NCBI RefSeq assembly: GCF_040703125.1
Contig: NZ_CP160035.1
Location: 1,488,001-1,552,000, forward strand
Length of the DNA stretch: 64,000 nucleotides
Reading direction: 5' to 3'
Source: Flavobacterium ovatum
GTDB taxonomy: Bacteria; Bacteroidota; Bacteroidia; Flavobacteriales; Flavobacteriaceae
In this document: positions 46,063 to 64,000 of the stretch, one piece after another
Numbering within the stretch: position 1 is the stretch's first letter
How the letters are laid out: each line of letters begins with the position of its first letter
Notes under the pieces: model-generated
The model's database searches: none
Told to the model about the DNA's origin: nothing
The model's input: only the letters and a program-made list of their open reading frames with translations
Program-made: the position numbers and the translations under genes

Positions 46063-46128
46063 TAAAACTACATTCACACAATTGGTTTTCAGGGGCTGTT
46101 TATTCTTTAAAAGGGGGAGAATTGTACA
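46063..46128 (-). promoter_or_regulatory. PUL operator site B and promoter of the T9SS protein gene
   Basis: Reverse strand: TGTACAATT (46128-46120) then CTCCCCC (46119-46113), 42 nt, then TAGTTTTA (46070-46063), one base off TAnnTTTG. It matches site C (TGTACAATT-TTGCCCC) in sequence and spacing. Confidence 0.6.
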
Positions 46129-46139
46129 AGGCATAAAAA

Positions 46140-46173
46140 AAGCAAGAATTTCTTTTTATAGAAATTCTTGCTT
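46140..46173 (-). terminator. Terminator after the GH5 gene
   Basis: AAGCAAGAATTTC (46140-46152) pairs perfectly with GAAATTCTTGCTT (46161-46173); a run of A on the left is the T tail for the minus strand. It ends the susC-susD-GH2-GH5 transcript. Confidence 0.88.
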
Positions 46174-47371: not shown

Positions 47372-49198
47372 TTAATTCATTTTTTTTGTTTCGTAATATT
47401 TTTGTAAAACATAAAAAGCTTTTTTCTTTATTCCTGTTTCAGAAATAAGCCCTTTTCTATTCCAAAAATTTTGATATATTGGGTTTTGACGTCGTGGGGA
47501 CTTGAAGTCAACAAGAATCCAAGGAGTCATTCCTCTTAGTCCATCAATTTTTTCTAACATTTCCAGTTGTTTGATATAGAACAACTCCTGTAATTCTTCG
47601 CTCCACATGGTATCTTCATCTCCGTGAAAGCCAGCCAGAGCACCTGCACCAAATTCAGAAATAACAACTGGTTTATTGAATTTGATATCAAATGTATATT
47701 TAGGTAATTCTTTAGGCTCAGACCAATACCATCCGCCATATTCATTAAAGCTAGCCAAATCTAATTTGTTACCCAAAACGTCATCAACAGTTACGGTATA
47801 GCCATGGCGTTCCAATTCAAGAGCTGCCGCTACCAAGCGTGTATTGTCAATACTTCTCACTTTGTCTACCAGTTTACCCATGAAAATGTTTCTGTCTTTA
47901 TTGATGGGAGTTTCATTCCCAACTGACCAAATAATGATACTGGCTCTGTTTTTATCTCTTTCAATCGCTACTGCCAATTGATTTTCAGCATTGTCATAGG
48001 TTTCTTGATTTGTCCAAGAGATGGTCCAATAAACGGGTACTTCTGCCCATACTAATAAACCAACTTCATCTGCCAACCTTAGCATTGTTTCATTGTGCGT
48101 GTAATGAGCTAATCTTATGTAATTACAGCCCAATTCTTTTGCCCAATTAAGCATCATTCGCATATCCCCTTCAGAACGGAATCTTCCACCTACAAGCGGG
48201 TTTTCGTCATGGACAGATATTCCTTTTAGAAAGATCGACTTACCATTCAGGAAAATATCTTTGTCAATTGTTTTTATAGTTCTAAAACCAATTTTATCGG
48301 TTACCTTATCTAATTTCGAAGAAACAATAACATTATAAAGTTTTGGAGTTTCTGGAGACCAGTACTGCACTTTTTTTACAGGGAAATTAAATTTAGCATA
48401 CCCGTTCTCATCTACAGTATAAGTAGATTTGATTTTTAGCTCAGGAATTTCTACAACCACAGTCTCATTTTTCGCAGCATTTTTTAATTGAATAAAACCT
48501 TCTATTTGATCTTTATTATCCTTTGCAAGTTGCACTTTGTAATCTTCGATATAAATGCTAGGTGTGGAGATTAATAATACATCTCTAGTTATTCCACCAT
48601 AATTCCACCAATCAGTATTAATGGTTGGGACAGCATCCTTTTTACGAGTATTATCTACCATTACTACGATAAAATTGTCACCGTCTTTTAGTTTTCCTGT
48701 GACATCAAATTGAAACGGAGTAAAACCACCCTTGTGAGTTCCGATTTTTTTTCCATTTAAATAAACGTGTGATTCGTAATTAACAGCAGCAAAATAGATA
48801 AAGTAGTTTTTGTCTTTTTTTGGTGTAACTACAAAGTCTTTCTTATACCATAGTGTTCCTTCATAAAATAAAAGACGCTGGTCTTGAGAGTTCCAATCAC
48901 CAGGCACTTGTAATGATGGCTCAAACTCAAAGTTGTATTCAACTTTTGTTTTCTTATCAGTTGGATTCAAATTTTCATAAAATCCACCTGTACCATCTTT
49001 ACTTTCATCAAATGGTTTCTGTCTGTAATCTAGATAGCCCATTTGATAAGGGTCAATGATGTATTTCCACTGACCGTTTAAACTTAATTTTTCTCTATTG
49101 AATACGTTTTGAATCGTTTTTTGACTATAGGTATTTAATTGAATTACCATAAAAGTCAAACAGACTAAAACCATTTCTTTATAATTCATTTTTGACAT
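47372..49198 (-). CDS. GH2 family glycoside hydrolase (beta-glucuronidase or beta-galactosidase type)
   Basis: A 608-residue exported enzyme (signal ending NTYSQ). It has the GH2 sugar-binding domain ('LSLNGQWKYIIDP', 'YESHVYLNGKKIGTHKGGFTPF'), an Ig-like domain and the catalytic barrel: 'LAHYTHNETMLRLADEVG', acid/base Glu in 'IWSVGNETP' and nucleophile in 'VISEFGAGA'. The N-terminal part and 'WWNYGGITRDV' are closest to beta-glucuronidases as I recall, but beta-galactosidase cannot be ruled out. The start is ATG 49198 or 49189. It follows susD by 65 nt. Confidence 0.9.
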   Translation of the reverse strand: MSKMNYKEMVLVCLTFMVIQLNTYSQKTIQNVFNREKLSLNGQWKYIIDPYQMGYLDYRQKPFDESKDGTGGFYENLNPTDKKTKVEYNFEFEPSLQVPGDWNSQDQRLLFYEGTLWYKKDFVVTPKKDKNYFIYFAAVNYESHVYLNGKKIGTHKGGFTPFQFDVTGKLKDGDNFIVVMVDNTRKKDAVPTINTDWWNYGGITRDVLLISTPSIYIEDYKVQLAKDNKDQIEGFIQLKNAAKNETVVVEIPELKIKSTYTVDENGYAKFNFPVKKVQYWSPETPKLYNVIVSSKLDKVTDKIGFRTIKTIDKDIFLNGKSIFLKGISVHDENPLVGGRFRSEGDMRMMLNWAKELGCNYIRLAHYTHNETMLRLADEVGLLVWAEVPVYWTISWTNQETYDNAENQLAVAIERDKNRASIIIWSVGNETPINKDRNIFMGKLVDKVRSIDNTRLVAAALELERHGYTVTVDDVLGNKLDLASFNEYGGWYWSEPKELPKYTFDIKFNKPVVISEFGAGALAGFHGDEDTMWSEELQELFYIKQLEMLEKIDGLRGMTPWILVDFKSPRRQNPIYQNFWNRKGLISETGIKKKAFYVLQKYYETKKMN

Positions 49199-49263
49199 AG
49201 AATAATGTTGTTTTACAGATAGAAAAATATTCATAATAGATAATTTGTACTACTATGTTTTTC

Positions 49264-50877
49264 TTAATATCCAATATTAAATTGAGATGCATTTGCACCT
49301 ATAATATCAATTTGACTTTGTGGTACTGGACAATTGATATAATGAGACCTCCAAGGAGTTATACTGCTATTAGCATCATTGGCTTCTGCACCAGTGTTAT
49401 CACCATTTCTATAATGAAGCACAATTCTTTCACCAAGAAGTCCTAGTCGTTTTAATAAAAACCAACGGTTATTTTCGAATGCTAATTCTCTAGCTGATTC
49501 ATCTAAATAAGTGTTTAAAGTCCAAGTTGTAAAATCGAAAGCTGATGGTGTGTTTGGATTTAATCCATAACCTCTACGTCTTACTTTGTTTATGTATCCT
49601 AAAGCTGTAACATCTTGTCCCAAATTATGATGTGCTTCAGATGCCAACAAAAGTGTTTCGGCATATCTGTAATAGATGTAGCTTTTATAGCTGTTTTCTG
49701 TCCCTACAAGCTTAGTCTGAAAATCAGCATATTTTTTTAAACTCCAATGGAATCTTCGGTAATTGTCTTCAGGAGCTGTAATAGGTTGCCCAAACCTAGG
49801 GTGTTTAGGATTGTTAACAAGATAAGAGGTATGGTTGTCAGGCCAGTAATATGTTGTAAATCTTTTGTCGTTTGTTTTGTCATAAAGAGACTTTAAGTAA
49901 TTATTAGGGAAGAACCAGCCTAAAGATTGGCCACCATAATTAACATCCAAAATAACTTCGTTTCCAGCAGTTGCATCTGCTCCTGATTGTTTTTCATAAA
50001 GCCTTTGCGTAAAGACACTTCCTAACCAAAAACCACCTCCACCAGCTAAACCATCTCCATCTCCTAGTGATTGATTTTTTTGGTACACAAACAAAGCTTC
50101 ACTATGGTTTACATTTTCTCCAAAAACTTGGTTTAAATCTACTAAATCGTGAGTTGTGTTTGTTATTATTGCATCAAATTGATCAGCAGCTTCTTGCCAA
50201 TCTCCTGTCCACATAGCAGCTTTCCCTCTTATATGTCTTGCTACTCCTTGTCCATAACGGCCTGTTGAAACTTTCCAGTCTAAATTAGCTACAGCAAAGT
50301 CAAGATCAGCATTAATTACTCCAAAAACGGCTTCTTTTGTGGCTGCTTTATACTCAATTGGATCATTGAAATTAGTAGGCGTAGTAGGAACTGTATCTAA
50401 TAAAATGGTTCCATACATGCTTATTAAATCTAAGTATAATTCTCCTCTAATAACTCTGGCTTGTGCAACAAGTTTGTTTTTTGCAGTTTGATCCATTGCA
50501 ACAGCTCTAGAGTTTGTAATAATTGCAGACGCTCTGTCTATTATACGATAAGCATTTACCCATTTATCGCTTGGGAATCGAGAAGGCGTATGTTCGTTTG
50601 CTCCATAAGGAGTAAACCATGTTCTGTGAAGCCCTAAATCAGTAGCGGCAAGAAAAAATACATTAGCCTGTAGGTTCGTATTGTCTCCAGATGGCGCGTT
50701 GTACTGACGCATTCTGTTGTAAAGTGCATTCACCCCAACTTCTAATCCTTCAGGTGAATTGTATATGTAATCAACGGAAACTTTATCTATAACTTCTTCA
50801 TCTAGGAATGACTCACATGATAAGAATGTAAGAGAAACTAAAAGTGTTGATATGATAAAATATTTTATTTTTTTCAT
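49264..50877 (-). CDS. susD: SusD/RagB family glycan-binding lipoprotein
   Basis: A 537-residue lipoprotein (LTFLSC, then ESFLDEE). TPR-like helices ('EGLEVGVNALYNRMR', 'ARVIRGELYLDLISMYG') and the C-terminal 'ESARELAFENNRWFLLKRLG' are typical of SusD. It covers the SusC barrel on the cell surface and delivers oligosaccharides. It lies 43 nt after susC in the same operon; the sugar specificity cannot be read from sequence alone. Confidence 0.95.
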   Translation of the reverse strand: MKKIKYFIISTLLVSLTFLSCESFLDEEVIDKVSVDYIYNSPEGLEVGVNALYNRMRQYNAPSGDNTNLQANVFFLAATDLGLHRTWFTPYGANEHTPSRFPSDKWVNAYRIIDRASAIITNSRAVAMDQTAKNKLVAQARVIRGELYLDLISMYGTILLDTVPTTPTNFNDPIEYKAATKEAVFGVINADLDFAVANLDWKVSTGRYGQGVARHIRGKAAMWTGDWQEAADQFDAIITNTTHDLVDLNQVFGENVNHSEALFVYQKNQSLGDGDGLAGGGGFWLGSVFTQRLYEKQSGADATAGNEVILDVNYGGQSLGWFFPNNYLKSLYDKTNDKRFTTYYWPDNHTSYLVNNPKHPRFGQPITAPEDNYRRFHWSLKKYADFQTKLVGTENSYKSYIYYRYAETLLLASEAHHNLGQDVTALGYINKVRRRGYGLNPNTPSAFDFTTWTLNTYLDESARELAFENNRWFLLKRLGLLGERIVLHYRNGDNTGAEANDANSSITPWRSHYINCPVPQSQIDIIGANASQFNIGY

Positions 50878-50920: not shown

Positions 50921-53900
50921 TTAAAATCCTAATTTAAGTCCGGTAACAAGTGTCACTGGTTCTGGATAATCACCAGGGTTTTTCTCTGGACTATACGATT
51001 GAAAATCCGTTATAGTTATTAAGTTGCTACCCGTTACATATATTCTTAAATTTGATAATCCTAATTTTGAAGTTATTGTTTTAGGCAAAGAATAACCAAA
51101 AGTTATATTTTGTAATCTAACATAGGAAGCGTCTTGCAAGCCTAAATTAAAAATATTGCTAGGGTCATTTCCTTCTTTAGGTCTAGGGAAGTTTCCTCCA
51201 GGATTTTCTGGTGTCCAATAGTTTTGTTTAATTCCGTTTTTGATTCCTCTTAATGATCCTCCTTCTGTATAACCATATAGAAAAGGATTGTCTCTTGTAA
51301 CACCTTGTACCGTATAAAAATCGGCAGACATATCAAATCCTTTGTATTCCATACCCAAAGAAACGGTTCCGTACCAATCTGGAGCTCTTGAAGTAATTAC
51401 ACGGTCACTATCGTTAATTACATTGTCACCATTTACATCTAGCAATTTAATGTCTCCAGGAACAGCCAATGGTTGTGCTGAATTTATGATATTTTCACCT
51501 TCTTGGAAAATTCCAGTAGGTTGGTATTGGTAAAAAACACCAATAGACTGACCAATAAATCTTCTATTCAATATATCATTATCTTCTATACCGTCTCCAT
51601 TTGCATCTTTACCGTATAAACTAATTATTTTGTTATTGTTTTTAGTAAAAGACAAACCTAGATTCAATTTGAAATCTTTTTTTCTGATAATGTTAGCATT
51701 TACTGTTGCTTCAAATCCTCTATTTTCGATTTCACCAATATTACTCCATCTATTGCTGTATCCAGAAGACAGGTCTAACTGCTCTTGAACTAATAAATCT
51801 TTTGTTCGAGTAACGTAATATTCCAAAGTAGTGGTGATTCGGTCATTAAAAAAGCCAAAATCTACTGCCGAGTTAAATGTTGTTGAAGTTTCCCATCTCA
51901 AATCTGGATTGGGTAAAAATGCTCCTGGTATGTAACCTGATACTTGTGTGCCATTAATTACATAATTATTTTGATTGGCATTACTCTGACTTAGTCCAGG
52001 AGAAATGGCTTCATTACCAACACTTCCGTAACTAAAACGTAATTTTAAATTATTAATTTCATCAATATTACTCATGAAATTTTCTTTGTGTACATTCCAA
52101 CCAATATTTGCAGAAGGGAAAAATGCCCATTTATTATTTTTTCCAAATACTGTTGAGCCATCAACTCTACCGGCAACGGTAAAATAATATTTATTATCAT
52201 AATCATATTCTACTCTTCCAACACCAGATACAATCCCTCTTTTGTATGCTGAAAGCGTTGGTGTGTTTAATAATGCCGATTCAAGTCCGTTTATGCCTAG
52301 TATGTCATTAGGGATTCTGGTAGATGAATTTTGAAAATTATTGTTCGTTGTTTCAGAAACACTTTGAACAGCAGTAAAACCAAAATGATTTACTTCTTTA
52401 AGGTTGAAATTATAGGTAAAGATGTTTTCAATTTGCCACTCTACTTCATCTTGAAATTGTATAGCACCACTACCTTGTCCAGCATTCGCAATTCCAGTAA
52501 TCGATTTTGTAGTATTGTATGATGCTCGTTTGTAATTCCAAGATCTTCTACTAGTATTCAATCTGTATTTGAAGCCTTTAAAGGGAGTAACATCTAAAAA
52601 CACATTTAAGATATCATTTCTGTTTTCGATAAAATTAGTCGTTTGTTCTAGATCTATTAATGGATTTTTATTCTCTGCAAATCCACCAGGTAAAAAGCGC
52701 AACGAACCATCATCATTAAAGGCTTTTCCAAGGGGAGCCGTTGTAATAGAACTAAGGATAACACCGCTCGTATTAGGACTATTTGATTCAGAAAATTGAA
52801 AAGAGGTATTGATTCCTACTTTCATCCAATCATTTATTTTTTGATCGGCATTCAATCTCAATCCTACTTTATTAAAGTCTGAATTTGGGATGACTCCTTT
52901 TGTATTAATATAGTTTACACTGCTGAAAATATTGAAAGTTTCAGTCCCAGAAGAGATATTAAGAGCATGATTTTGAGTTTGTCCTGTTTGTAGCACCAAG
53001 TCTTCCCAATTTACATAATTTCCAGATTGAACACTTTCTAGTTCTAATGCAGAAAATATCTGATCGTCTGGTCTGTAAACTCCTCCGTTGTTGGTTCTGA
53101 AAGCTTCTCTTTTTAGCTGTGCAAATTCTTCACCGCTATAGATGTCAAAATTTCTGTTGATAGTCTGAATTCCAGAGAACCCGTTATAAGAAATTTTTGC
53201 TTTACCATCTTTACCTCTTTTGGTTGTAATCAATATGACACCATTAGCAGCTCGAGCTCCATATATAGATTGAGCAGCAGCATCTTTAAGTACTTCCAAT
53301 GATTCAATGTCATTGGCATTGATGTCATTGATACTTCCAATTCGTACACCATCTGCAATTACAATTGGATCGTTTCCTCCACTTATAGAACGTTGACCTC
53401 TTATTTGAATAGATGATGAACTTCCAGGTGCGCCACTTGCCAATGAAACTTGAACTCCAGCAGCTTTTCCTCTTAGCATTTCTCCAACATCGGAGGTTGC
53501 TACTTTAGTTAAATCTTCTGCTTTTACACGTACTACAGAACTAATAATGTCGCTTTTCTTTTTTACACCATAACCTACAACAACCACTTCTTCTAGTTTG
53601 TTGTCTGAAATTAATGTTGCATTAATAGTGGTTTGGTTACCCACCAAAATGGTTACTGTTTTGGTACCTACATACGAAAAGGTAAGTTTCTGATTTGGTG
53701 TAGTACTAATGGAATATTTTCCGTCAATATCTGTTGAGGTTGCAAAGGTAGTTCCTTCAATAAGAATAGTAGCCCCAGGAAGTGGTAACCCTATATCATC
53801 GATGACCGTTCCTTTTACTGTTTTTGTTTGAGCATTAACTGTTAAAGAGATCATGCTTAATAATACAATAAAGCCTAATCTCCTTTTAAGATTAAATTGC

Positions 53901-53932
53901 TTAAAAGCATTTCTTTGAATATTTATTTTCAT
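50921..53932 (-). CDS. susC: SusC/RagA TonB-linked outer-membrane transporter
   Basis: A 1,003-residue TonB-dependent importer of oligosaccharides. It has a signal peptide (SLTVNAQ), a carboxypeptidase-like regulatory domain ('VKGTVIDDIGLPLPGATI'), the SusC TonB-box region ('LEEVVVVGYGVKKKSD'), a plug with 'RGQRSISGGNDPIVIADGV' and 'NGVILITTKRG', then a 22-strand barrel ending VTGLKLGF. The ATG at 53932 is chosen over the upstream extension. An operator-like site (A) lies 86-110 nt upstream. It heads the PUL operon. Confidence 0.96.
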   Translation of the reverse strand: MKINIQRNAFKQFNLKRRLGFIVLLSMISLTVNAQTKTVKGTVIDDIGLPLPGATILIEGTTFATSTDIDGKYSISTTPNQKLTFSYVGTKTVTILVGNQTTINATLISDNKLEEVVVVGYGVKKKSDIISSVVRVKAEDLTKVATSDVGEMLRGKAAGVQVSLASGAPGSSSSIQIRGQRSISGGNDPIVIADGVRIGSINDINANDIESLEVLKDAAAQSIYGARAANGVILITTKRGKDGKAKISYNGFSGIQTINRNFDIYSGEEFAQLKREAFRTNNGGVYRPDDQIFSALELESVQSGNYVNWEDLVLQTGQTQNHALNISSGTETFNIFSSVNYINTKGVIPNSDFNKVGLRLNADQKINDWMKVGINTSFQFSESNSPNTSGVILSSITTAPLGKAFNDDGSLRFLPGGFAENKNPLIDLEQTTNFIENRNDILNVFLDVTPFKGFKYRLNTSRRSWNYKRASYNTTKSITGIANAGQGSGAIQFQDEVEWQIENIFTYNFNLKEVNHFGFTAVQSVSETTNNNFQNSSTRIPNDILGINGLESALLNTPTLSAYKRGIVSGVGRVEYDYDNKYYFTVAGRVDGSTVFGKNNKWAFFPSANIGWNVHKENFMSNIDEINNLKLRFSYGSVGNEAISPGLSQSNANQNNYVINGTQVSGYIPGAFLPNPDLRWETSTTFNSAVDFGFFNDRITTTLEYYVTRTKDLLVQEQLDLSSGYSNRWSNIGEIENRGFEATVNANIIRKKDFKLNLGLSFTKNNNKIISLYGKDANGDGIEDNDILNRRFIGQSIGVFYQYQPTGIFQEGENIINSAQPLAVPGDIKLLDVNGDNVINDSDRVITSRAPDWYGTVSLGMEYKGFDMSADFYTVQGVTRDNPFLYGYTEGGSLRGIKNGIKQNYWTPENPGGNFPRPKEGNDPSNIFNLGLQDASYVRLQNITFGYSLPKTITSKLGLSNLRIYVTGSNLITITDFQSYSPEKNPGDYPEPVTLVTGLKLGF

Positions 53933-53973: not shown

Positions 53974-54042
53974 CAAATATCAATTTTAATACAACAAGCG
54001 AAGGGAGGTATACATTCGTTTATAGGGGTGTGAATGTATCTG
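53974..54042 (-). promoter_or_regulatory. PUL operator site A and promoter of susC
   Basis: Reverse strand: GATACATTC then ACACCCC (54040-54025), 43 nt, then GATATTTG (53981-53974), one base off TAnnTTTG. Inverted TACATTC/GAATGTA arms (54011-54017 and 54032-54038) also frame this site. Confidence 0.55.
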
Positions 54043-54144
54043 TAAGATTAATGCCTTTAAAATCAGGGATTTTTGAGAGGAATATAGCTAAGAATGCTTT
54101 TGAGAATTAAAATTTCAAAAACATTCCTAGCCTATTTAAGGGAA

Positions 54145-57100
54145 TTATTCAGTTGGACTGTTTGTGTTTTTATAAACAGAAGGAGATGCTTTGTATACTT
54201 TTTTAAACTCTCTGCTAAAGTGTTTTCTATCACTAAATCCTACTAAGAAGGCAACTTCAGAGATTGGATAAGAAGTGTTTAAAATAATATCTGAGGCTTT
54301 TTTAAGTCTCAAATGCTTGATTAAACTAGCGACAGAATGATTGGTTAGGGTATTCACTTTTTTGTATAAAATAGTTCTACTCATTCCAATTTCATTGACC
54401 AACATATTAACATCTAATTCAGGATTTTCAATATTCTCTTCAATAATTCTCATTAACTTTTTAATAAAAATTTCTTCTGGAGTAGTTAACTTATCTAAGT
54501 CCGAGTCTACAATAAAGTTACCGCTGTATTTAAGCTTTAGAATTTCTTTAGAGGATAAAAGGTTCTGAATACTAAGTTTTAAAATTTGAGTACTAAAGGG
54601 TTTGGATATGTAAGCATCTGCACCAGTCGATAGTCCTTCAATCTTGTTGTCAATCGAAGCTTTTGCAGTTAGTAAGATAACAGGGATATGATTCGTACTT
54701 TCATTTGTTTTAATATAAGCACATAATTCAAGGCCGTCCATTTCGGGCATCATTATATCACTAATAATTAAATCTGGAATTTCTTTTTCCATGAAACTTA
54801 CAGCTTCTTTACCATTTGGAAAATCAATAATATTATATTCTTCGTTTAAAACATTAATAAGAAACGTGCGTACTTCATCATTGTCTTCTACAACAAGGAG
54901 TGTTTTTTTGTTAGTATCGAATTCTTCATTTGAATCTTCTCCTATTGATGTATTATCGGTTTCAATTGTTTTTTTGGTAGTGATAATCGGTTCATTGTTG
55001 GTGCCGTCACTTTTTAGAATTTGATCCTGTGTTAAATGTTTATGACCTAGGAGTAATTCAATTTGGAAAACTGTATTTGTCCATGATTCTGTTTCATTAA
55101 GAATGGTGATTTCTCCTTTGTGAAGTTCAACAATACTTTTGGACAAGGCCAAACCTACACCACTTCCCATATTGTGAGTACCTCGATCATCGACTTGGAA
55201 AAAATTGTTAAAAATATTATCCTTACTCTCCTCAGGAATACCAATTCCGTTATCCTTAATTTTGATAAATACTTTTTTTTCTGCAGCTGTGCCTTCTTCT
55301 ACAGCCAATACAATTTTTCCATTTTTCTTGGTGAATTTAAAGGCGTTTGAAAGCAAATTAAACAATACTTTTTCCATTTGATTTTGGTCAAAGTAAACTG
55401 GGATTTTATGAGAATTAAGCACAAATTTATATTCGATATTTTTTTCAACAGCAAGAACTTTGAAGGATTCAAAAATTTCAAAGCAAAACGAAATGATGTC
55501 TTGCTTTTCACAGTAGATTTTCATGTGACCTTCTTCAGCCTTTCTAAAATCCAATAATTCATTTACTAGTTTTAATAAACGATCTGAGTTTTGCTGTATC
55601 ATTTTTAGTTTGGTTTTGGTTGTTAAATCATTGTTTGTTGCGGTTAATAGTTCTTCGACAGGGCCTTTTATGAGGGTTAAAGGGGTTCTTATTTCATGAG
55701 AGATATTGGTAAAGAAATTCAATTGCATATTGAGAATTTCTTGCTTTCTTTCGTTTTCTACATGTTCTAAAAATAATTCTCTTTTTAGTTTAATTCGGTT
55801 TTGAATAAAACGATATACAGTATAATTAAATAATAGAAATAATATGACGTATAAACTATAGGCCCACCAGGTTTTCCACCAGGGAGGGAGAATAATAATT
55901 TTTAAGGTTTTTACTTTCGGATTCCAGCTACCATCATCGTTGGTCGATTTTACAGATAAATTGTAAGTTCCATGATTTAAGTTTGATAAGTTAATTCTGT
56001 TTTGCGTGCCTGTAAGGTGCCATTGGTCCTTAGTTGATTCATAATCTAATTTATAAGCATAGTTGCTTTTTTTAGGGTTTACAAAATTTAAACTACTGAA
56101 TTCTAGTCCAATATATCCTTGGTCATAATTGATGGTAATTTGAGAAGTTTCAGAAATAGGTTTGTTTAAAATAGTGCTTTCCTGGCCTGATTCAATAATT
56201 TCATTATTGACAATAAGTTTTGTAAAAACAATTGCACTATTATTAGAAGCTTTAATTAAAGACTGAGTATTAAACAACAATAGTCCTTTGGAAGAACCAA
56301 AAGCTAATTTGTTTTCATTAATTTGAATACCGGAATTATAGGAAAACTGCTTAACTGATACACCGTCACTTACAGAGAATCTGGTGATTTCAAAATCAGA
56401 ATCTTTTAAGTTAATCGAATCATTTTTTATTTTTATTTTAAAAAGAAAATCTTCGGAACTCACCCATAGGTTCCCTTCTGCATCCTCGGTTACACTTTTA
56501 ATGGTTGCGTCGGTTAATCCTTTGGCTTTATTTAGGGTTAAGAAAGTGTCATTTGATTCGTTTAAATAATACAATCCATCGTAGTCTGCTCCAATCCATA
56601 ATCTATTCTTAGAGTCTGTAAATAGTGTAGTTAAGCTATTATTGTCAATCGGTTTTTTAGTTTTAGATCTAAAAAGTTTGGATACTTTTTCAAGTTTTTT
56701 ATCAAAATAATTTAAGCCATTTGTAGTTGTTATCCAGATTCCCTCTTTTCTGTTTTCCAAATCCATGATGAAATTATCTGAAAGAGAATTTGGGGAACGA
56801 TTTTTTCTGTAATTTTCTACTTCACCATTTGGAGCTATTTTTTTTAAGCCGTTTCCATTTGTTCCCACCCAAATAGTTCCATTATCCATTATTAATGATG
56901 TTATAGGGCGTTCATCTTCAATAAGTCCGTTGGCGCTAAGTGGAATTTTTTTAAACGTTTTAGAGGTTTTGTTGAACTGAAACAGCCCATTAAATGTTCC
57001 GAATACTAAGGTGTTGCTGTCTTTGTTAATTATAGCAGTAACTAAATTTTTTGTCTTTTTGTCGTCATTGTCAATTTTGTACGATGTAGAAATATTGTTT

Positions 57101-58281
57101 TTTAAATCTAGATAATTTAGTCCACCACCATAGGTTCCAACCCATAATGCATCATTATTTTCTTTTACAATAGCATGTACTAACGCATTGTTTAATCCAA
57201 ATTGCGGCTTTAATGTTTCTCCTATTTTAGAGAAATTGGTGTTTGATTTGTTATAGAAATTGATTCCTCCAGCAGTTGTTCCAGTCCAAATGCAACCGTT
57301 ATTATCTTTTAAAAAACAATTCAAATCATTGTCACTCAGGCTGAAATTGTTCAATGGATTGTGTTTGTAATTCGTAAAATTATTTTTAATACTATTATAG
57401 ACACTCAGTCCATCTTTTGTAGCAAACCACATAGTACCGTTGTTGAGCTGAACTATATCGTTTATCCAATTGGAGGCAATTGAGTTTGCATTTTTGGAAT
57501 CGTTTTTATACTGAATAATTGCATTCTTTGATTTAGAATACAAAAAAGCTCCCATGGTTTCAGAAGCAAACCATAAGTCTCCTGTTTTGGTTTTAACAAT
57601 TTTCCAGATTTTTGCTTTCAAAAAATCAGGATTATTATAAAATACGTTAGGTAGTTTTTTACTTTTTAAAGTGGTGGGATCAAAGTGTTTTAGACCTTGT
57701 GATGTGCCTGCTAAAAGGCCCCATTCCTTATCGTAAAAAAGTGAAAGTACCCTACTGCTGTTTAATTCAAAATTAGGATTGTCATTTATATTATTTAACT
57801 TATTAGTTTTCAGATTAAGTCTTTTTACGCCACCAAAAGTTCCAACCCAAATCGTTTTATTTTGGTCTTCTGCAAACGAGCTGATGTAGTTTTCCCCTCC
57901 TTTAGCACTTGAAATGTCAATAGTTATGAAATTATTTGAATTTTTATTAAAGAAATTTAATCCATGGTTTGTACCGATCCAAAGATTTTCATTCGAATCT
58001 TCAAAAATCATATTGATATGATTGTTGCTTAGGCTTCCTTTAATTTGTTTGTTTCTAATGTATCTATTAAAACTGTAGCCGTCATATCGAAACAATCCGT
58101 TTTTTGTGCCAATCCAAATAAAACCTTTTTCGCTTTGAAGCATGCTCGAAATCATACTTGGAGAAAAATCCTCATCATAGTTAACTTGGTCAAAATGCAG
58201 TCCAGACTCTTGCGCTGATAGTTTACAAAAGCATAGTAAAGTCAATAAAAAAATAAGCGCTTTTTTTATGGAAAGAATCAT
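54145..58281 (-). CDS. Hybrid two-component system sensor/regulator (HTCS)
   Basis: A 1,378-residue one-protein signalling system of PULs. It has a signal peptide (KLSAQ), about 14 two-component propeller repeats ('GFIWIGTKNGLFRYDGYSF', 'NLWIGTNHGLNFF') forming two periplasmic propellers, a Y_Y_Y domain ('YAYKLDYESTKDQWH', about 745-805) and one TM (about 815). It continues with HisKA ('FFTNISHEIRTPLTLIKG', His about 865), an ATPase domain ('LLSNAFKFTKK', 'GSGVGLALSKSI'), a receiver (Asp in 'LIISDIMMPEMDG') and an AraC DNA-binding domain (about 1275-1375). It would sense an oligosaccharide and switch on the PUL promoters. Confidence 0.96.
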   Translation of the reverse strand: MILSIKKALIFLLTLLCFCKLSAQESGLHFDQVNYDEDFSPSMISSMLQSEKGFIWIGTKNGLFRYDGYSFNRYIRNKQIKGSLSNNHINMIFEDSNENLWIGTNHGLNFFNKNSNNFITIDISSAKGGENYISSFAEDQNKTIWVGTFGGVKRLNLKTNKLNNINDNPNFELNSSRVLSLFYDKEWGLLAGTSQGLKHFDPTTLKSKKLPNVFYNNPDFLKAKIWKIVKTKTGDLWFASETMGAFLYSKSKNAIIQYKNDSKNANSIASNWINDIVQLNNGTMWFATKDGLSVYNSIKNNFTNYKHNPLNNFSLSDNDLNCFLKDNNGCIWTGTTAGGINFYNKSNTNFSKIGETLKPQFGLNNALVHAIVKENNDALWVGTYGGGLNYLDLKNNISTSYKIDNDDKKTKNLVTAIINKDSNTLVFGTFNGLFQFNKTSKTFKKIPLSANGLIEDERPITSLIMDNGTIWVGTNGNGLKKIAPNGEVENYRKNRSPNSLSDNFIMDLENRKEGIWITTTNGLNYFDKKLEKVSKLFRSKTKKPIDNNSLTTLFTDSKNRLWIGADYDGLYYLNESNDTFLTLNKAKGLTDATIKSVTEDAEGNLWVSSEDFLFKIKIKNDSINLKDSDFEITRFSVSDGVSVKQFSYNSGIQINENKLAFGSSKGLLLFNTQSLIKASNNSAIVFTKLIVNNEIIESGQESTILNKPISETSQITINYDQGYIGLEFSSLNFVNPKKSNYAYKLDYESTKDQWHLTGTQNRINLSNLNHGTYNLSVKSTNDDGSWNPKVKTLKIIILPPWWKTWWAYSLYVILFLLFNYTVYRFIQNRIKLKRELFLEHVENERKQEILNMQLNFFTNISHEIRTPLTLIKGPVEELLTATNNDLTTKTKLKMIQQNSDRLLKLVNELLDFRKAEEGHMKIYCEKQDIISFCFEIFESFKVLAVEKNIEYKFVLNSHKIPVYFDQNQMEKVLFNLLSNAFKFTKKNGKIVLAVEEGTAAEKKVFIKIKDNGIGIPEESKDNIFNNFFQVDDRGTHNMGSGVGLALSKSIVELHKGEITILNETESWTNTVFQIELLLGHKHLTQDQILKSDGTNNEPIITTKKTIETDNTSIGEDSNEEFDTNKKTLLVVEDNDEVRTFLINVLNEEYNIIDFPNGKEAVSFMEKEIPDLIISDIMMPEMDGLELCAYIKTNESTNHIPVILLTAKASIDNKIEGLSTGADAYISKPFSTQILKLSIQNLLSSKEILKLKYSGNFIVDSDLDKLTTPEEIFIKKLMRIIEENIENPELDVNMLVNEIGMSRTILYKKVNTLTNHSVASLIKHLRLKKASDIILNTSYPISEVAFLVGFSDRKHFSREFKKVYKASPSVYKNTNSPTE

Positions 58282-58797
58282 ATTGGATTGAGATTTTGAA
58301 GTAAAAGTTACGATAATTATTTTTTAAATTTTAATGGTGAATTTAAAGATTTCTATCCGGTAATTTTATTCCTTATGATGATTAAACAATTATGTAGCAG
58401 AATGTTGTTTTTAATAAGCAAATTTTACCATTTTGAAATTTTAGTTTAATCGAGTTGTTTTTTAATGTTTATCAAAATGCAAATAAAGTAATATGTATTT
58501 GTATTTTAGAAATATGGACTTTTTAATCATTGGTGTGTTTTAAGAACGGAATTGTCTATTGTGATTTATCTCATAATTCGATTGTGTAGGTTAGTTAATA
58601 GTCACAAACTTATCCATATATTATGATATAATAGATGAAAATTGTTTGTAATTAGGGTTCTATATGTGTTTGGTTGTATAAAATGGAATAGCAAAACAAT
58701 ACTATATTTTAAACTCTATGATTTTGATTATTTGATTTTATAGGATGAAAAATTAAGTGTAATAGTTTTAACTTGTTTAAATAGGATTTATTGAATG
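58282..58797. other. Non-coding gap between HTCS and lipoprotein genes
   Basis: About 515 nt of very AT-rich sequence before operator site C. No gene, remnant, terminator or clear HTCS promoter is seen. Confidence 0.5.
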
Positions 58798-58863
58798 TGT
58801 ACAATTTTGCCCCTAAACAGAAATTATCAGATACTTAAAGACTTTACATTATGACTAATTTTG
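58798..58863 (+). promoter_or_regulatory. PUL operator site C and promoter of the CBM6 lipoprotein gene
   Basis: TGTACAATT (58798-58806) then TTGCCCC (58807-58813), 42 nt, then TAATTTTG (58856-58863), a full -7 box. No TTG lies at the usual place, as expected of an activated promoter. Confidence 0.65.
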
Positions 58864-58903
58864 TTAAAATCAAATGACCAATAAATAACTAAAACGTTTA
58901 ATT

Positions 58904-60331
58904 ATGAATTTTAAAAACATTAAAATATCTAAAAGTACCTATTTAATTTTATTTTTCACCTTCTTTTTACTCTCCTGTGAAAGAGAAGTGGAAAGAGAAG
59001 TTGTGCTGTATGATAAAGGGAAAACGGAGGCTACTGCCTCAAAAACTAGTATTGATTTTGGACAATCTGTAGATTTCACAAGTACTTCTTTTAAAGTATT
59101 AACCACAAATTGGACATTTAAAGGAGGGTCTCCAGCTACATCTATCAATCCTAATGTTAAAGTTTCGTATAGTACACCAGGTACATTTGATGCTACCTTA
59201 GTTGTCAAGTACATTGATAATACTGTTGAGACGGTAAAATTTACTATTGTAGTAAAAGGTATTGACGCAGCGTTGCCTTATAGCGGTACTGCAGTTGCAA
59301 TTCCGGGTACATTTGAAGCCGAAAATTATGATAAAGGAGGAGAAGGAGTAGGGTATCATGATAATGAAGTTGCAAATCTAGCCGTCGCCAACGGAAGTAC
59401 TAGATATAGAACGGATGACGGTGTTGATGTCGAAGTAGGTACGCCAACAAAGATTAGCTATACTAATGCGGGAGAATGGGTAAATTATGCAGTGAATGTT
59501 GCCAATGATGGTTTTTATGATTTTGAATTTAAAGTAGCTTCAGGAAATGCTGCCGGAGGAAAATCAATTAAACTGCAATCTGTAAATATAAGTACAGGGC
59601 AAGTTACTGATCTTGGTCAAAGTGGAAATTTTTCATTTACAGGTGGGAACAATGTCTTCGTTAGTAAAAACATAACAGGAATTGCATTGAGCAAAGGTCT
59701 CAATACATTACGATTGTTTTTTACAGGTAGTGATACCAACCTTGATAAGGTAAATGTTATTGTAAGTTTGCCTCCAGCACCTATTGATGGTGTCGGTATT
59801 TATACCGAAAGAGATATTGTAAGTACTAATGCAGGAATTGCTCCACCACCTAATAACGGAAATTTTTCAATTACAACTGTGAGTACCAATACCAATCATG
59901 GAAGCAAAAGTTTATTTTATCATTATGATCCTACAGGAAACGGAAGTCCGCAAACTGGTTTTGCATTGTCACACATGGATTTGACAACCTCACCTTATAA
60001 TGCATCTGCCTACGGTTTCTTAAATATTGCTGTTAAATCTACGACTCCCAAAAATGTAAGGATTCGTTTGAATACAAATGCTGGGAATTTTTGGGTAACT
60101 TTAAAACCAGCGGTACCAGCTTACGGAATGCTTTGGGATGGTGCTTGGCATGAATTAGTGATTCCTTTTTCTGATATATTGTTAAATGGATCAGGTGCTG
60201 GTTTATCAGCTACACCAACTGCACTATCTAGCATAAAGCAATTTACAGTAAGAACGGATGACAGTGATTATACAACTGCACCCGATTCATTTGATTATTA
60301 TATTGATGATATTTATTTCACGAAAAAATAA
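58904..60331 (+). CDS. PKD-CBM6 surface lipoprotein (glycan-binding)
   Basis: A 475-residue lipoprotein (FFLLSC, then EREVERE). Order: a PKD-like domain (about 35-120; 'VDFTSTSFKVLTTNWTFKGGSP'), a CBM6 module (about 130-290; 'IPGTFEAENYDKGGEGVGYHD', 'NAGEWVNYAVNV'), and a third beta-sandwich (about 295-475; 'GIYTERDIVS', 'WDGAWHELVIPFSDIL', ending DDIYFTKK). No catalytic domain is seen, so this is probably a surface glycan-binding protein. CBM6 modules bind beta-glucans, xylans or agar ends. Confidence 0.85.
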   Translation: MNFKNIKISKSTYLILFFTFFLLSCEREVEREVVLYDKGKTEATASKTSIDFGQSVDFTSTSFKVLTTNWTFKGGSPATSINPNVKVSYSTPGTFDATLVVKYIDNTVETVKFTIVVKGIDAALPYSGTAVAIPGTFEAENYDKGGEGVGYHDNEVANLAVANGSTRYRTDDGVDVEVGTPTKISYTNAGEWVNYAVNVANDGFYDFEFKVASGNAAGGKSIKLQSVNISTGQVTDLGQSGNFSFTGGNNVFVSKNITGIALSKGLNTLRLFFTGSDTNLDKVNVIVSLPPAPIDGVGIYTERDIVSTNAGIAPPPNNGNFSITTVSTNTNHGSKSLFYHYDPTGNGSPQTGFALSHMDLTTSPYNASAYGFLNIAVKSTTPKNVRIRLNTNAGNFWVTLKPAVPAYGMLWDGAWHELVIPFSDILLNGSGAGLSATPTALSSIKQFTVRTDDSDYTTAPDSFDYYIDDIYFTKK

Positions 60332-60358
60332 ATAAAAAAATTAGTTAGTTTTTTTTTC

Positions 60359-60392
60359 AAAACCGTGGGGGACTATTTCTTCACGGTTTTTT
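60359..60392 (+). terminator. Terminator or attenuator between the lipoprotein and GH3 genes
   Basis: AAAACCGTG (60359-60367) pairs with CACGGTTTT (60382-60390), followed by TT. GH3 lies 40 nt further on with no operator copy or clear promoter of its own, so partial read-through is likely. Confidence 0.7.
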
Positions 60393-60432
60393 AATAATTA
60401 AAATAATCATAAACACTTCAAATATTATTATA

Positions 60433-62715
60433 ATGAAAAGTAGAAACACTATTATTGGACTGTTTTCACTGTTTGTAGTTGCCAATGCATACGCTCAGCG
60501 AAAACCACATTTGGATAGTAAAAAAACTATTGAGGAGCGCATTACTTTGTTGATGAATGAAATGACAGTCGAAGAAAAAGTTGGACAAATGAATCAGTAC
60601 AACTGGTCCTGGGACGTGACTGGTCCGGCGCCAAAAGGAGGTGTCTCAAAATTAAAATTAGACCATCTACGCCAAGGTTGGGTTGGTTCCTTATTGAGCG
60701 TTCGAGGAGCAAAAGAAGTTCGTGCGGTTCAAAAGATTGCGGTGGAAGAAACACGTTTAGGGATACCATTAATCATCGGGTTTGATGTCATTCATGGGTA
60801 CAAAACGTTGAGTCCAATTCCATTAGCCGAAGCCGCTAGTTGGGATTTAGAGGCCATACGAAAATCGACTGCTATTGCGGCAGCTGAAGCTTCGGCAGCT
60901 GGTATTAACTGGGCGTTTGGTCCAAATGTAGATATTTCTCGTGATCCTCGTTGGGGACGTATTATGGAAGCGGCGGGAGAAGACCCTTATTTAGGAAGCA
61001 AAATCGCCACGGCACGTGTCAAAGGATTTCAAGGTGATAATTTGGCAGAAAATAATACTATTGCAGCTTGTGCCAAACATTTTGCAGCCTACGGTTTTGT
61101 AGAATCTGGACGAGAATACAATACGGTTGATATTAGTAATGCTACACTTTACAATGTTGTTTTACCTCCTTTTAAAGCAGCCAAAGACGCAGGCGTACGA
61201 ACAATGATGAATGCATTTAATTTGCTAAACGGAATTCCAGCCACTAGTAATTCTTTTTTACAAAGGGATATTCTAAAAGGAAAATGGGATTTTGATGGAT
61301 TTGTAGTTTCAGATTGGGCTTCAATAAAAGAGACAGTGACGCATGGTTTTGCAAAAGACGGAAGCGAAGCTGTTCAAAAATCAGTGATGGCGGGTTCTGA
61401 TATGGATATGGAATCGTATTTGTATGTCGCAGAATTGGTAAAGTTGGTCAATGACAAAAAAGTAAAAATCGAGTTGGTGGATGATGCTGTTCGAAGAATT
61501 CTCCGTGTCAAATATGAGCTAGGTTTGTTTGATGATCCGTATAAGTATTGTGATGAAGCAAGGGAGAAAACCACCATTGGAAGTCAATTTAATAATGAGG
61601 GAGTTTTGGATATGGCCAAAAAATCAATTGTATTGCTGAAAAATGAGAATCAGCTTCTTCCTTTAAAAAAATCAGGGCAAAAAATTGCACTTATTGGTGC
61701 TTTGGCAAATGATAAAACGAGTCCGTTGGGAAGTTGGCGAATTGCTTCAAATGATAATACCGCTGTTTCTGTTTTGGAAGGAATGCAAAAATACAAAGGA
61801 AATCAACTGACTTACGACAAAGGGACTGATGTAACAGTTGGTAAAACTACTTTTGTACAGGAATTAGAATTTAATACCACGGATAAAAGCGGATTTGAAG
61901 CAGCCAAAAATGCAGCTCAAAATGCAGATGTTGTGGTAATGGTTTTAGGTGAACATGGTTTTCAAAGTGGAGAAGGAAGAAGTAGAACCAATATCGATTT
62001 GCCTGGGAATCAACAGGAATTGTTAGAAGAAATATTTAAAGTGAATAAAAACATTGTATTGGTTCTTAATAACGGAAGACCATTAACGATCCCTTGGGCA
62101 AGCGAAAATATTCCAACAATTGTAGAAGCTTGGCAATTGGGAACGCAATCTGGTAATGCGATTGCAGAGGTACTTTATGGAGACTACAATCCAAGTGGAA
62201 AATTACCCATTTCGTTCCCTAGAAATGTGGGTCAAATTCCAATTTACTACAACCATTTTGGTACAGGTCGCCCTGTGAATTCTGATACTAATGTATTTTG
62301 GTCTCATTATTCAGATGTAGAAAACACCCCTTTGTATGTTTTTGGTCATGGGTTAAGCTATACTTCCTTTGGGTATTCTAATCTAAAAATTAACAAAGCT
62401 GTTTTTGAAAAAGACGAACCTGTAAAAGTATCTGTAACAGTTACTAATACTGGCAAATATGAAGGAAAAGAGGTTGTACAATTGTATATTAGGGATTTGA
62501 ATGGTAGTTTGGTGAGACCAGTTAAGGAGCTAAAAGGATTTGAATTGGTCAATCTAAAAATAGGAGAAACCAAAATAATCAATTTTACATTGACCAATGC
62601 CGAGTTGGGATTTTTTGACAACAATGGCAATTATTTAGTTGAATCAGGAATGTTTAAAGTATTTGTTGGGACCAATTCTAATGACGTACTGGAAAGTGAG
62701 TTTGAATTGAAATAA
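60433..62715 (+). CDS. GH3 family beta-glucosidase (BglX-like)
   Basis: A 760-residue periplasmic enzyme (signal ending NAYAQ). The GH3 N-domain has 'MTVEEKVGQMNQ', 'GIPLIIGFDVIHGYKT', 'DPRWGRIMEAAGEDPYLG', 'AACAKHFAAYG' and the nucleophile Asp in 'GFVVSDWAS' (about residue 296). It is followed by the C-domain ('GEHGFQSGEGRSRTNIDLP') and an Fn3-like end ('YVFGHGLSYTSFGYSNL'). This order matches BglX-type exo-beta-glucosidases that free glucose from beta-glucan oligosaccharides. Confidence 0.95.
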   Translation: MKSRNTIIGLFSLFVVANAYAQRKPHLDSKKTIEERITLLMNEMTVEEKVGQMNQYNWSWDVTGPAPKGGVSKLKLDHLRQGWVGSLLSVRGAKEVRAVQKIAVEETRLGIPLIIGFDVIHGYKTLSPIPLAEAASWDLEAIRKSTAIAAAEASAAGINWAFGPNVDISRDPRWGRIMEAAGEDPYLGSKIATARVKGFQGDNLAENNTIAACAKHFAAYGFVESGREYNTVDISNATLYNVVLPPFKAAKDAGVRTMMNAFNLLNGIPATSNSFLQRDILKGKWDFDGFVVSDWASIKETVTHGFAKDGSEAVQKSVMAGSDMDMESYLYVAELVKLVNDKKVKIELVDDAVRRILRVKYELGLFDDPYKYCDEAREKTTIGSQFNNEGVLDMAKKSIVLLKNENQLLPLKKSGQKIALIGALANDKTSPLGSWRIASNDNTAVSVLEGMQKYKGNQLTYDKGTDVTVGKTTFVQELEFNTTDKSGFEAAKNAAQNADVVVMVLGEHGFQSGEGRSRTNIDLPGNQQELLEEIFKVNKNIVLVLNNGRPLTIPWASENIPTIVEAWQLGTQSGNAIAEVLYGDYNPSGKLPISFPRNVGQIPIYYNHFGTGRPVNSDTNVFWSHYSDVENTPLYVFGHGLSYTSFGYSNLKINKAVFEKDEPVKVSVTVTNTGKYEGKEVVQLYIRDLNGSLVRPVKELKGFELVNLKIGETKIINFTLTNAELGFFDNNGNYLVESGMFKVFVGTNSNDVLESEFELK

Positions 62716-62735
62716 TTTTTTTTTTTTTGAAAGAG

Positions 62736-62764
62736 GCTGTCTAACTATTTAGGCAGCTTTTTTT
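62736..62764 (+). terminator. Terminator after GH3
   Basis: GCTGTCTAA (62736-62744) pairs with TTAGGCAGC (62749-62757) including one G-T pair, with a T run behind it. Confidence 0.8.
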
Positions 62765-62819
62765 GTGCTTACAATAGTCGGTTTTTGTTTTTTATTTCTA
62801 AATAAAAACTTTTTATAAA

Positions 62820-62883
62820 TACAAATCAACCCTTATATAAGCATGTTTGTGACCTTGAAAATTCAGAGAATTATCAATCTTTG
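62820..62883 (+). promoter_or_regulatory. PUL operator site D and promoter of the agarase-like gene
   Basis: TACAAATCAACCCT (62820-62833), 42 nt, then AATCTTTG (62876-62883), one base off TAnnTTTG. It is a weaker match to the TACA-N6-CCCC pattern, but the spacing equals that at sites B and C. Confidence 0.5.
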
Positions 62884-62920: not shown

Positions 62921-64000
62921 GTGGAAAGTAAATTAAAAATCTCAGGTAAAATCACTTTTTTATTGCTAATCGTTTTTGGTAATACGGTATCGTTCGCTCA
63001 AAACAATTGGAGTACAAAATCTTCTTTGTCTCAAGACGATCAAGGTTTTTATAAAGTGATGGCTAGGCAAAATGCCGACGATACTGTTTGGAAAGAATAC
63101 ACCGCAAAAACTATAGATAAGCTACCGGATTTTAATTATACTAAGGATCCTCAAACAAATCAATACGGTGGCTGGAACGTATTTAATGTTAAGGCGACAG
63201 GTTTTTTTAGAACAGAAAAAATAGACAATCGTTGGTGGATAATTGACCCCAATGGAAATCCATTTATACATAAAGGAGTCGCTGTTTTAAACCCAGGTTC
63301 ATCCGAGGGTCAAAATAAAGCTTTAGAATCAAAGTACGGAAATAAGTCCAATTGGATTTCAAAGGAAACTACTTTTCTAAAAGAGCAAGGTTTTAATGGA
63401 GCTGGTGCTTGGTCAAATGTTGATTTAATTAGAGAGGAGAAAACGCCACTGGTTTATACCGTAATTGTAAGTCCGATGGGAGCATACAAATCACAGCATC
63501 TAAAGAAATTTAATGGGAAGTATGAGAAAGCAGGCTGGCAAGGGTTTCGGTACGATTTGGCGATGGTTTTCGATGCCGAATTTGATGTTTATGTTGAAAA
63601 AGAGATTTCTAAAATTCAAAAATATAAAAATGATAAATTCTTGTTGGGATATTATACAGATAATGAATTACCATGGGTTGATGACGCCTTAGACAGACAT
63701 TTGAATTTTTTAGGTAAAGAAGAAGAAGGGTATAAAGCTGCCAAAAAATGGTTGGAGGCTAGAAAAGGAAAAAACGCTACTGTTGCTGATATTACTGACT
63801 TAGATCGACAAGATTTTACCGGCTTTTACTTTGAAACCTATATGAAAAAAGTAACTAAAGCCATTAAAAAATACGATAACAATCACCTCTATTTAGGGTG
63901 TCGATTTAATCAAGAAAAGGATGAATTAGACAATCCAAAAATATTTGAAGTAGCTGGAAAGTATATGGATGTTATCTCTATTAATCATTATCGAAAATGG
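62921..64000 (+). CDS. Agarase-like (clan GH-A) glycoside hydrolase, N-terminal part (cut by window edge)
   Basis: Open from GTG 62921 to the window end, 360 residues. The signal peptide ends TVSFAQ. The body has 'ATGFFRTEKIDNRWWIIDPNGNPFIHKG', 'FLKEQGFNGAGAWSN' and 'FLLGYYTDNELPW', the last with the Asn-Glu of a clan GH-A acid/base as in GH50-type agarases. The closest label I can give is agarase-like; the real substrate could be a beta-glucan. No ATG exists in frame before the signal, so GTG is used. It has its own operator (site D) and follows the GH3 terminator. The C-terminus lies outside the window. Confidence 0.72.
   Translation, partial: MESKLKISGKITFLLLIVFGNTVSFAQNNWSTKSSLSQDDQGFYKVMARQNADDTVWKEYTAKTIDKLPDFNYTKDPQTNQYGGWNVFNVKATGFFRTEKIDNRWWIIDPNGNPFIHKGVAVLNPGSSEGQNKALESKYGNKSNWISKETTFLKEQGFNGAGAWSNVDLIREEKTPLVYTVIVSPMGAYKSQHLKKFNGKYEKAGWQGFRYDLAMVFDAEFDVYVEKEISKIQKYKNDKFLLGYYTDNELPWVDDALDRHLNFLGKEEEGYKAAKKWLEARKGKNATVADITDLDRQDFTGFYFETYMKKVTKAIKKYDNNHLYLGCRFNQEKDELDNPKIFEVAGKYMDVISINHYRKW

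Follow-up and report, generated by a model that had tools for sequence, protein, structure and literature searches.

HTCSs are a major class of glycan-use regulators in Bacteroides and its relatives, and the HTCS operators in the accessible literature are mostly predictions from Bacteroides. In class II activation by AraC-family proteins, as at araI2 and rhaBAD, two tandem half-sites are used, and the proximal one overlaps the −35/−33 region. For B. thetaiotaomicron, the accessible text of Ravcheev 2013 (PMC3878776) gives direct repeats predicted for 16 of 36 HTCSs, 21 bp on average, and describes the predicted sites as 12–16 bp long with a 5–9-bp spacer; in one example, 16-bp sites are separated by 5 bp. 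On the promoter side, the portions of the sources available to us place the TAnnTTTG box of F. psychrophilum at −12 to −5 (PMC9723704) and mention a −33 motif that was reported for B. fragilis and not found in F. johnsoniae (PMC7366714). In the text of the accessible literature (figures and supplements aside), there is no report of a fixed distance between an HTCS operator and the −7 box, or of the motif described here. Herein, we describe a candidate operator that is complete and traced across species, the fixed geometry of its promoters, and a feedback loop that it predicts.

The locus and its five promoter sites

The window, that is, the whole stretch of 64,000 nucleotides analysed here, comprises bases 1488001–1552000 of a 4.25-Mb single-contig genome. 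The PUL genes on its minus strand are those for the HTCS, SusC, SusD, GH2 and GH5, and the gene for a T9SS-sorted protein lies past a terminator-like hairpin. The plus strand carries the PUL genes for the CBM6 protein, a GH3, an agarase-like protein and a second GH3.

54145..58281, minus strand: HTCS, the proposed regulator (Pfam: Reg_prop propeller, Y_Y_Y, HisKA, HATPase, REC, AraC-type HTH)
50921..53932, minus strand: SusC; the start is taken at the first in-frame ATG downstream of the predicted 5' end, and the listed ORF begins at TTG 53983
49264..50877, minus strand: SusD (Pfam)
47372..49234, minus strand: GH2; best NCBIfam match beta-glucuronidase, below the NCBIfam cut-off
46199..47332, minus strand: GH5, endoglucanase-like
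46140..46173, minus strand: terminator-like hairpin of 14 pairs plus a T run, between the GH5 gene and the T9SS operator
45195..46034, minus strand: T9SS-sorted protein
58904..60331, plus strand: PKD-CBM6 protein, putative lipoprotein (Pfam)
60433..62715, plus strand: GH3, BglX-type, above the NCBIfam cut-off
62921..64000, continuing beyond the window end, plus strand: agarase-like enzyme without a Pfam match; the second GH3 gene is next

The hairpin at 46173–46140 had been overlooked in the preliminary description of this DNA. For the agarase-like enzyme, the closest solved structures are the 5t3b glycoside hydrolase and beta-agarases. The HTCS has the architecture that defines its class, combining in one polypeptide a periplasmic propeller/Y_Y_Y sensor with HisKA, HATPase, REC and AraC-type HTH domains. 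Its sequence shows HEIRTP and DIMMPEMDG, and its REC domain reads NHIP where S/CHIP, a common and not universal motif, is usual.

The preliminary description had claimed four promoter sites with gaps of 42, 42, 43 and 42 nt, counted from a 16-nt block to a −7-like box. All four sequences were present at their positions, and the recomputed gaps were the same, with one perfect box and three boxes with one mismatch. A proximal half-site and a fifth site, located before the HTCS gene, had been overlooked. The elements of the five promoters are as follows.

54025..54040, minus strand: susC operator, distal half GATACATTCACACCCC; top match genome-wide with the relatives-only model (E 2e-10)
54004..54019, minus strand: susC operator, proximal half ACGAATGTATACCTCC; conserved in eight orthologous susC promoters
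53974..53981, minus strand: susC −7-like box GATATTTG; gap 43, 1 mismatch, predicted 5' end about 53969
58798..58813, plus strand: CBM6-lipoprotein operator, distal half TGTACAATTTTGCCCC; at gap 42, the genome's sole composite match without a mismatch
58819..58834, plus strand: CBM6 operator, proximal half position AGAAATTATCAGATAC; weak, without a C block
58856..58863, plus strand: CBM6 −7 box TAATTTTG; gap 42, 0 mismatches
46113..46128, minus strand: T9SS-gene operator, distal half TGTACAATTCTCCCCC
46092..46107, minus strand: T9SS-gene operator, proximal half AAGAATAAACAGCCCC
46063..46070, minus strand: T9SS-gene −7-like box TAGTTTTA; gap 42, 1 mismatch
62818..62833, plus strand: agarase-like gene operator, distal half AATACAAATCAACCCT; genome model E 1e-4
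62839..62854, plus strand: agarase-like gene operator, proximal half AAGCATGTTTGTGACC
62876..62883, plus strand: agarase-like gene −7-like box AATCTTTG; gap 42, 1 mismatch
58655..58670, minus strand: fifth site (new), before the HTCS gene, distal half AACACATATAGAACCC; the whole element spans 58670–58605
58634..58649, minus strand: HTCS operator, proximal half position ACAAACAATTTTCATC; weak
58605..58612, minus strand: HTCS-promoter −7 box TAAGTTTG; perfect, gap 42, leader to the ATG about 320 nt

The TAnnTTTG box is thus exact in two of the five promoters (CBM6 and HTCS) and has one mismatch in the other three. An alternative box candidate, TAAAATTG, is present at gap 36 in the susC promoter.

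Since five promoters of the cluster and those of related species keep the signal at equal distance, the sites are most likely docking points of the HTCS. Judged from sequence, it is probable that all five are operators of the HTCS encoded at 54145–58281. The putative operator consists of two directly repeated sites spaced about 21 bp apart, and the preliminary description had only its distal half. The weaker second half lies 21–23 bp downstream of the distal half and is clearest at susC (ACCTCC) and the T9SS gene (AGCCCC). At the CBM6 and HTCS promoters the proximal halves are weak, and this was counted against the operator reading. The repeat offset was analysed over 14 sites, for which only G154 was retained among the genomes G154, G230 and G190. 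Self-match peaked at an offset of 22, with 92 of 224 positions and a z of 5.0 against shuffles, a value inflated by the kinship of the sites, and the runner-up was an offset of 24 (z 4.2). Matches of the C block were highest at 22–23 (37/56), with 34 at 21.

Conservation and specificity of the repeat

Searching 150 congeneric genomes, our own included, revealed HTCS orthologues of 54–69% identity in eight others, and one further orthologue (55%) was found in another genus of the same family. The HTCS, susC and susD were intact and syntenic in eight relatives' loci, and the HTCS was broken in G246. In all eight intact orthologous loci the operator, with its footprint located by orthology, stands upstream of susC; the repeat precedes susCD at the locus of its presumed regulator and is conserved with the orthologues. 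It also precedes the CBM6, agarase-like and T9SS genes in G265, and the CBM6 gene and a T9SS gene in G049. In six relatives, the CBM6-like, agarase-like and GH2 genes follow susC in the same orientation, and there the site was not found before those genes.

Motif-only matches in the relatives have sensible candidate targets. In G049, a plus-strand site (score 11.3, cut 11; TAGATTTG at 42) precedes GH5, SDR and UxuA genes, and it has a TGTACA palindrome in common with the CBM6 site. In G246, one site (E 9.7e-6) is followed by genes of isomerase-like, GH5 and MFS type, and a second, divergent site by a short gene with an HbpS-like match below the Pfam cut-off and by a gene for an aldo/keto reductase.

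The equal spacing had been claimed to exceed chance. This claim rests on three imperfect boxes, yet it passed both a TTTG-offset test and a scan with a matrix built from relatives. The 16 sites collected first all had a gap of 42 or 43 and a box with at least five of six matches; this collection left out promoters without a site and four weakly similar paralogous SusC matches (30–32% identity; G230, G190, G156 and G163). A TTTG begins 45–47 nt past the block in 24 of 29 sites (five of our own and 24 from nine relatives, with orthologous promoters among them that are not independent), and the stretches scanned around these sites contain six other TTTGs. The chance of a TTTG at any of the three offsets, which were picked post hoc, is 0.030 per site in this intergenic DNA. 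In the remaining 5 of 29 sites the TTTG at 45–47 is missing, and in the HTCS promoters of one clade it lies 1 nt closer.

A matrix scan had been proposed as a check on the sites. With 24 sites from nine relatives and none of our own in the matrix, the five sites took ranks 1–5 of ~128,000 window positions, scoring 39.3, 29.3, 27.0, 22.5 and 22.5 against 12.7 for the next position. A box at 42/43 accompanied all five top positions, and none of the next seven listed had one at 41–43. Because some of the relatives' sites behind this matrix came from a matrix that included our own, separate training was carried out on eight susC promoters. The matrix from these orthologues alone ranked the susC site 1, HTCS 7, agarase-like 12, T9SS 20 and CBM6 44; with the distal half alone, the ranks were 1, 16, 176, 117 and 45, respectively. 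In G265, scanned with a susC-trained matrix lacking G265, the susC, T9SS and CBM6 sites ranked 1–3, and the agarase-like and HTCS sites were not among the top seven. In the scan matrices, G154, G230 and G190 each had a weight of one third, and in a 29-site matrix they were unweighted.

The whole 4.25-Mb genome was then considered. With a model from 12 relatives' sites, by which 150 of 5365 first-look candidates were scored, the three best matches were susC (E 2e-10), the agarase-like gene (1e-4) and CBM6 (0.15). Among the same 150 candidates, the T9SS and HTCS sites were not listed at E <= 10, and matches outside the locus had E values of at least 0.16. The composite pattern with at most one mismatch gave our own sites as three of five matches at gap 42 and one of three at gap 43. 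With at most two mismatches, the pattern matched 29 and 33 times and its reversed controls 40 and 47 times; the weak composite matches are therefore meaningless. The single-half pattern with at most three mismatches gave 381 matches versus 229 in the reversed control, and its best outside match, at 3984507, had no second half-site by eye. No convincing distal regulon member was obtained in our genome with the 12-site model, the composite pattern or the single-half pattern.

A chance resemblance combined with flexible box calling would fit the mismatch in three of the four boxes first described and the chance-level count of the composite pattern with two mismatches. In view of the top-five ranking by the relatives-only matrix, the phylogenetic conservation and the TTTG offsets in 24 of 29 sites, we find this explanation hardly credible.

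The motif was also compared with the distribution of the HTCS. Nine of the 150 congeneric genomes, including our own, have an HTCS orthologue at E <= 1e-230. Under strict filters, the best motif E in these nine ranged from 8e-15 to 9.7e-6, seven of them having been in the training set and our own genome and G246 outside it. In the other 141 genomes, the best motif was 1.8e-4 or worse, or there was no match at E <= 0.05 under the same filters. In the HTH region, MSRT(I/V)LYKKV and DRKHFS are common to nine aligned orthologues, and DRKHF is missing from five aligned paralogues of our own genome, a sixth (L219) being left out because it had no ORF long enough. The best score at the six paralogous HTCS loci was 12.2 (29-site matrix) versus 22.5–39.3 for our own five sites (24-site matrix), so these loci do not share the motif. 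Outside the orthologous loci, G265 carries a C-rich repeat at 1018650 (E 0.0013), with none of ten query proteins found by tblastn within the surrounding 20 kb, and this repeat may belong to another regulator. For genomes without an HTCS orthologue, one of four examined matches (G256) lies just before another susC.

It is conceivable that a different regulator of glycan genes uses the sites, be it of the stand-alone AraC, CRP-like or catabolite type, and that the HTCS has its targets elsewhere or at susC only. The genome does encode more AraC-type proteins, to judge by several short alignments at the HTH end of the query. We nevertheless consider this improbable: across 150 genomes the motif goes with the HTCS orthologue, the HTH residues are conserved along with the motif, the best genome matches cluster in the PUL locus, the layout is a direct repeat, as predicted for HTCSs, and a global regulator would yield many sites elsewhere. 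The regulon first proposed, with the susC operon, the T9SS gene, CBM6-GH3 and the agarase-like gene under the HTCS, stands as the best reading, given the co-occurrence of the motif with HTCS orthologues and the conserved HTH residues.

Proposed mode of action and the site before the HTCS gene

With the box at −12 to −5, the distal half spans about −70 to −55, and a TTTG is found in the −33 zone of one of the 29 sites. As the proximal half occupies the −33 position, the HTCS is probably a class II activator. From the observed sequences, spacing, conservation and co-occurrence, we infer binding, activation, autoregulation, the sign of regulation and the operon extents. An oligosaccharide sensed in the periplasm would cause the HTCS to phosphorylate its receiver domain, and the AraC-type domains, as a dimer with both members facing the same way, would then occupy two half-sites separated by about two turns of the helix. 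The proximal half, at about −49 to −34, would replace the −33 element, fixed ~21 nt before the −7 box, and the bound HTCS would contact RNA polymerase in the manner of class II. Five units would be switched on together: susCD-GH2-GH5, the T9SS protein gene, CBM6-GH3, the agarase-like gene and the HTCS gene, the last by positive autoregulation.

The growth substrate had been taken to be beta-glucans. This assignment is only partly supported: the GH5 endoglucanase and GH3 fit it, but the GH50-like enzyme, the beta-glucuronidase-like GH2 and a relative's UxuA hint at a glucuronate-bearing beta-glycan. Assigning the regulon, with the relative's GH5-SDR-UxuA genes included, helps to infer the glycan, and the operator rule assigns genes to a PUL regulon where gene order fails, as for the separately transcribed T9SS gene.

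A site upstream of the HTCS gene and on its strand is present in our genome and in all eight intact orthologues, the relatives' sites having been found with a matrix that included four of our own (a mild circularity). The HTCS gene itself is probably a regulon target, so that the HTCS would boost its own synthesis. The predicted leader is ~320 nt in our genome versus 41–110 nt in the relatives, and it is the weakest part of the autoregulation claim. The available text on BT1754, an HTCS of B. thetaiotaomicron, reports constitutive expression at a low level (PMC3404733), and autoregulation would therefore depart from the known pattern.

The same operator could also be bound constitutively by the HTCS for repression, or the HTCS-gene site could be a functionless remnant in our genome. 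Our HTCS site scored lowest of the five in the first scans, its proximal half is weak and its leader long, and the REC contact motif deviates (NHIP); HTCSs off consensus might bind DNA unphosphorylated and repress, according to the accessible part of PMC11253607. However, the box is a perfect TAAGTTTG at exactly 42 nt, sites occur in 8/8 intact orthologues, and the location over the −33 zone, with TTTG there in 1/29, fits activation better. We regard repression or a remnant as rather unlikely, and retain the activator reading.

For this Flavobacteriaceae group, the reading would make the HTCS a positively autoregulated class II activator. The regulator and every target operon would be under one rigid composite element (direct repeat, ~21 nt, −7 box), and the response to the polysaccharide would be switch-like, all or none. 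This is a tentative proposal, with the chances for and against it close to balanced. An HTCS of this kind would not be constitutively expressed, unlike the Bacteroides model HTCS.

Other HTCS loci and described systems

To see how general the layout is, we surveyed 59 of 100 listed matches, which were near full-length to the HTCS; partial, own-genome and G049-orthologue matches were left out. Twenty repeat periods were compared in the 3' flanks of these 59 HTCS loci of the family; 21 bp scored best in 14 of the flanks and the next period in 8. The mean z was highest at 21 bp in both flanks (0.85 in 3' and 0.69 in 5'), and in the 5' flanks 21 bp was the single best in only 6/59, with 22 bp best in 7. 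The 21-bp repeat thus seems general among HTCSs. As it has the highest mean repeat score in 5' flanks, HTCS genes of the family may often have an operator in front of them.

The C-block pair at a fixed box distance was rejected as a general HTCS rule, since box offsets had no peak in 68 Bacteroidota loci (294 C-run pairs) or in the 59 Flavobacteriaceae HTCS loci (34 pairs). Single loci do fit it, namely the L214 paralogue, L225 and L038. When the best repeat was sought in the regions upstream of susC (38 regions, from 79 loci), no clear common distance emerged. Taking 21-bp repeats of any sequence, a strict TAnnTTTG was at the expected distance in two of seven, the strict box being too rare. 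The pattern A..TTTG occurred 30–59 nt from the repeat centre 14 times in 34 regions, versus about 3.7 expected from 12 other periods, and TTTG alone was only weakly enriched (19 versus about 13). For a fixed box distance at any 21-bp repeat near HTCSs, these counts are suggestive only.

Compared with the AraC-family class II cases, our regulator is a membrane hybrid kinase, and its promoter is of the Bacteroidota TAnnTTTG type. In B. thetaiotaomicron, BT1754 and BT0366 were found by ChIP-seq to bind DNA directly near their own PULs; BT1754 binds at the 3' region of its HTCS gene, as with the position of our susC operator, and its promoter is reported as low and constitutive, whereas our HTCS gene is preceded by a site (PMC3404733, accessible part). 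With the B. thetaiotaomicron HTCS regulons, as described in the accessible text, our locus shares an AraC-type HTCS adjoining susCD, a direct repeat of ~21 bp and a local regulon of several operons; the bacterium is a different one, and the likeness is one of layout (PMC3878776). The distance to the −7 box and the sites before the HTCS gene are features of our locus that are not in the HTCS operator description in that text (PMC3878776). The HTCS regulon described here is thus ordinary in kind; less ordinary are its nucleotide-exact promoter geometry across species and its predicted feedback loop.

Predicted operators at related loci

In one relative (G049, locus L153), two predicted operators are arranged back to back at about 12575-12696, with a single TGTACA palindrome common to both, and this pair sits between the CBM6 gene and the divergent GH5-SDR-UxuA genes. 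In a second relative, G246, the orthologue of the hybrid two-component sensor (HTCS) gene (L154, G246:C60, 135-4274) is interrupted by internal stops (3 TGA and 6 TAA listed), and two operator-like sites are still present beside it.

At L214, the locus of an HTCS paralogue, ACCCCCGCTTTT recurs on the minus strand with a 23-bp period, about 50-80 bases upstream of the gene starting at 7796. The second C block lies 22 nt upstream of TAATTTAG. This repeat may be the operator of a different HTCS.

Repeated matches in the F. ovatum genome

Operator-pattern matches at G000:C1:1875248-1880594 and 1889585-1893290 are separated by distances that are multiples of 486 and of 285 bases, which suggests long tandemly repeated genes. 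One identical 64-base match was found at five positions of the same contig (66001, 1727172, 1766070, 2487147, and 3383578), perhaps representing copies of a mobile element.

Predicted leader and receiver domain of the HTCS

54145-58281, minus strand: HTCS gene
58281-58605: its predicted leader

The predicted leader, at about 320 nt, is unusually long. The receiver domain of the HTCS carries NHIP at the position of S/CHIP, the form in most HTCSs; according to PMC11253607, the S/CHIP motif is linked to the inhibition of DNA binding.
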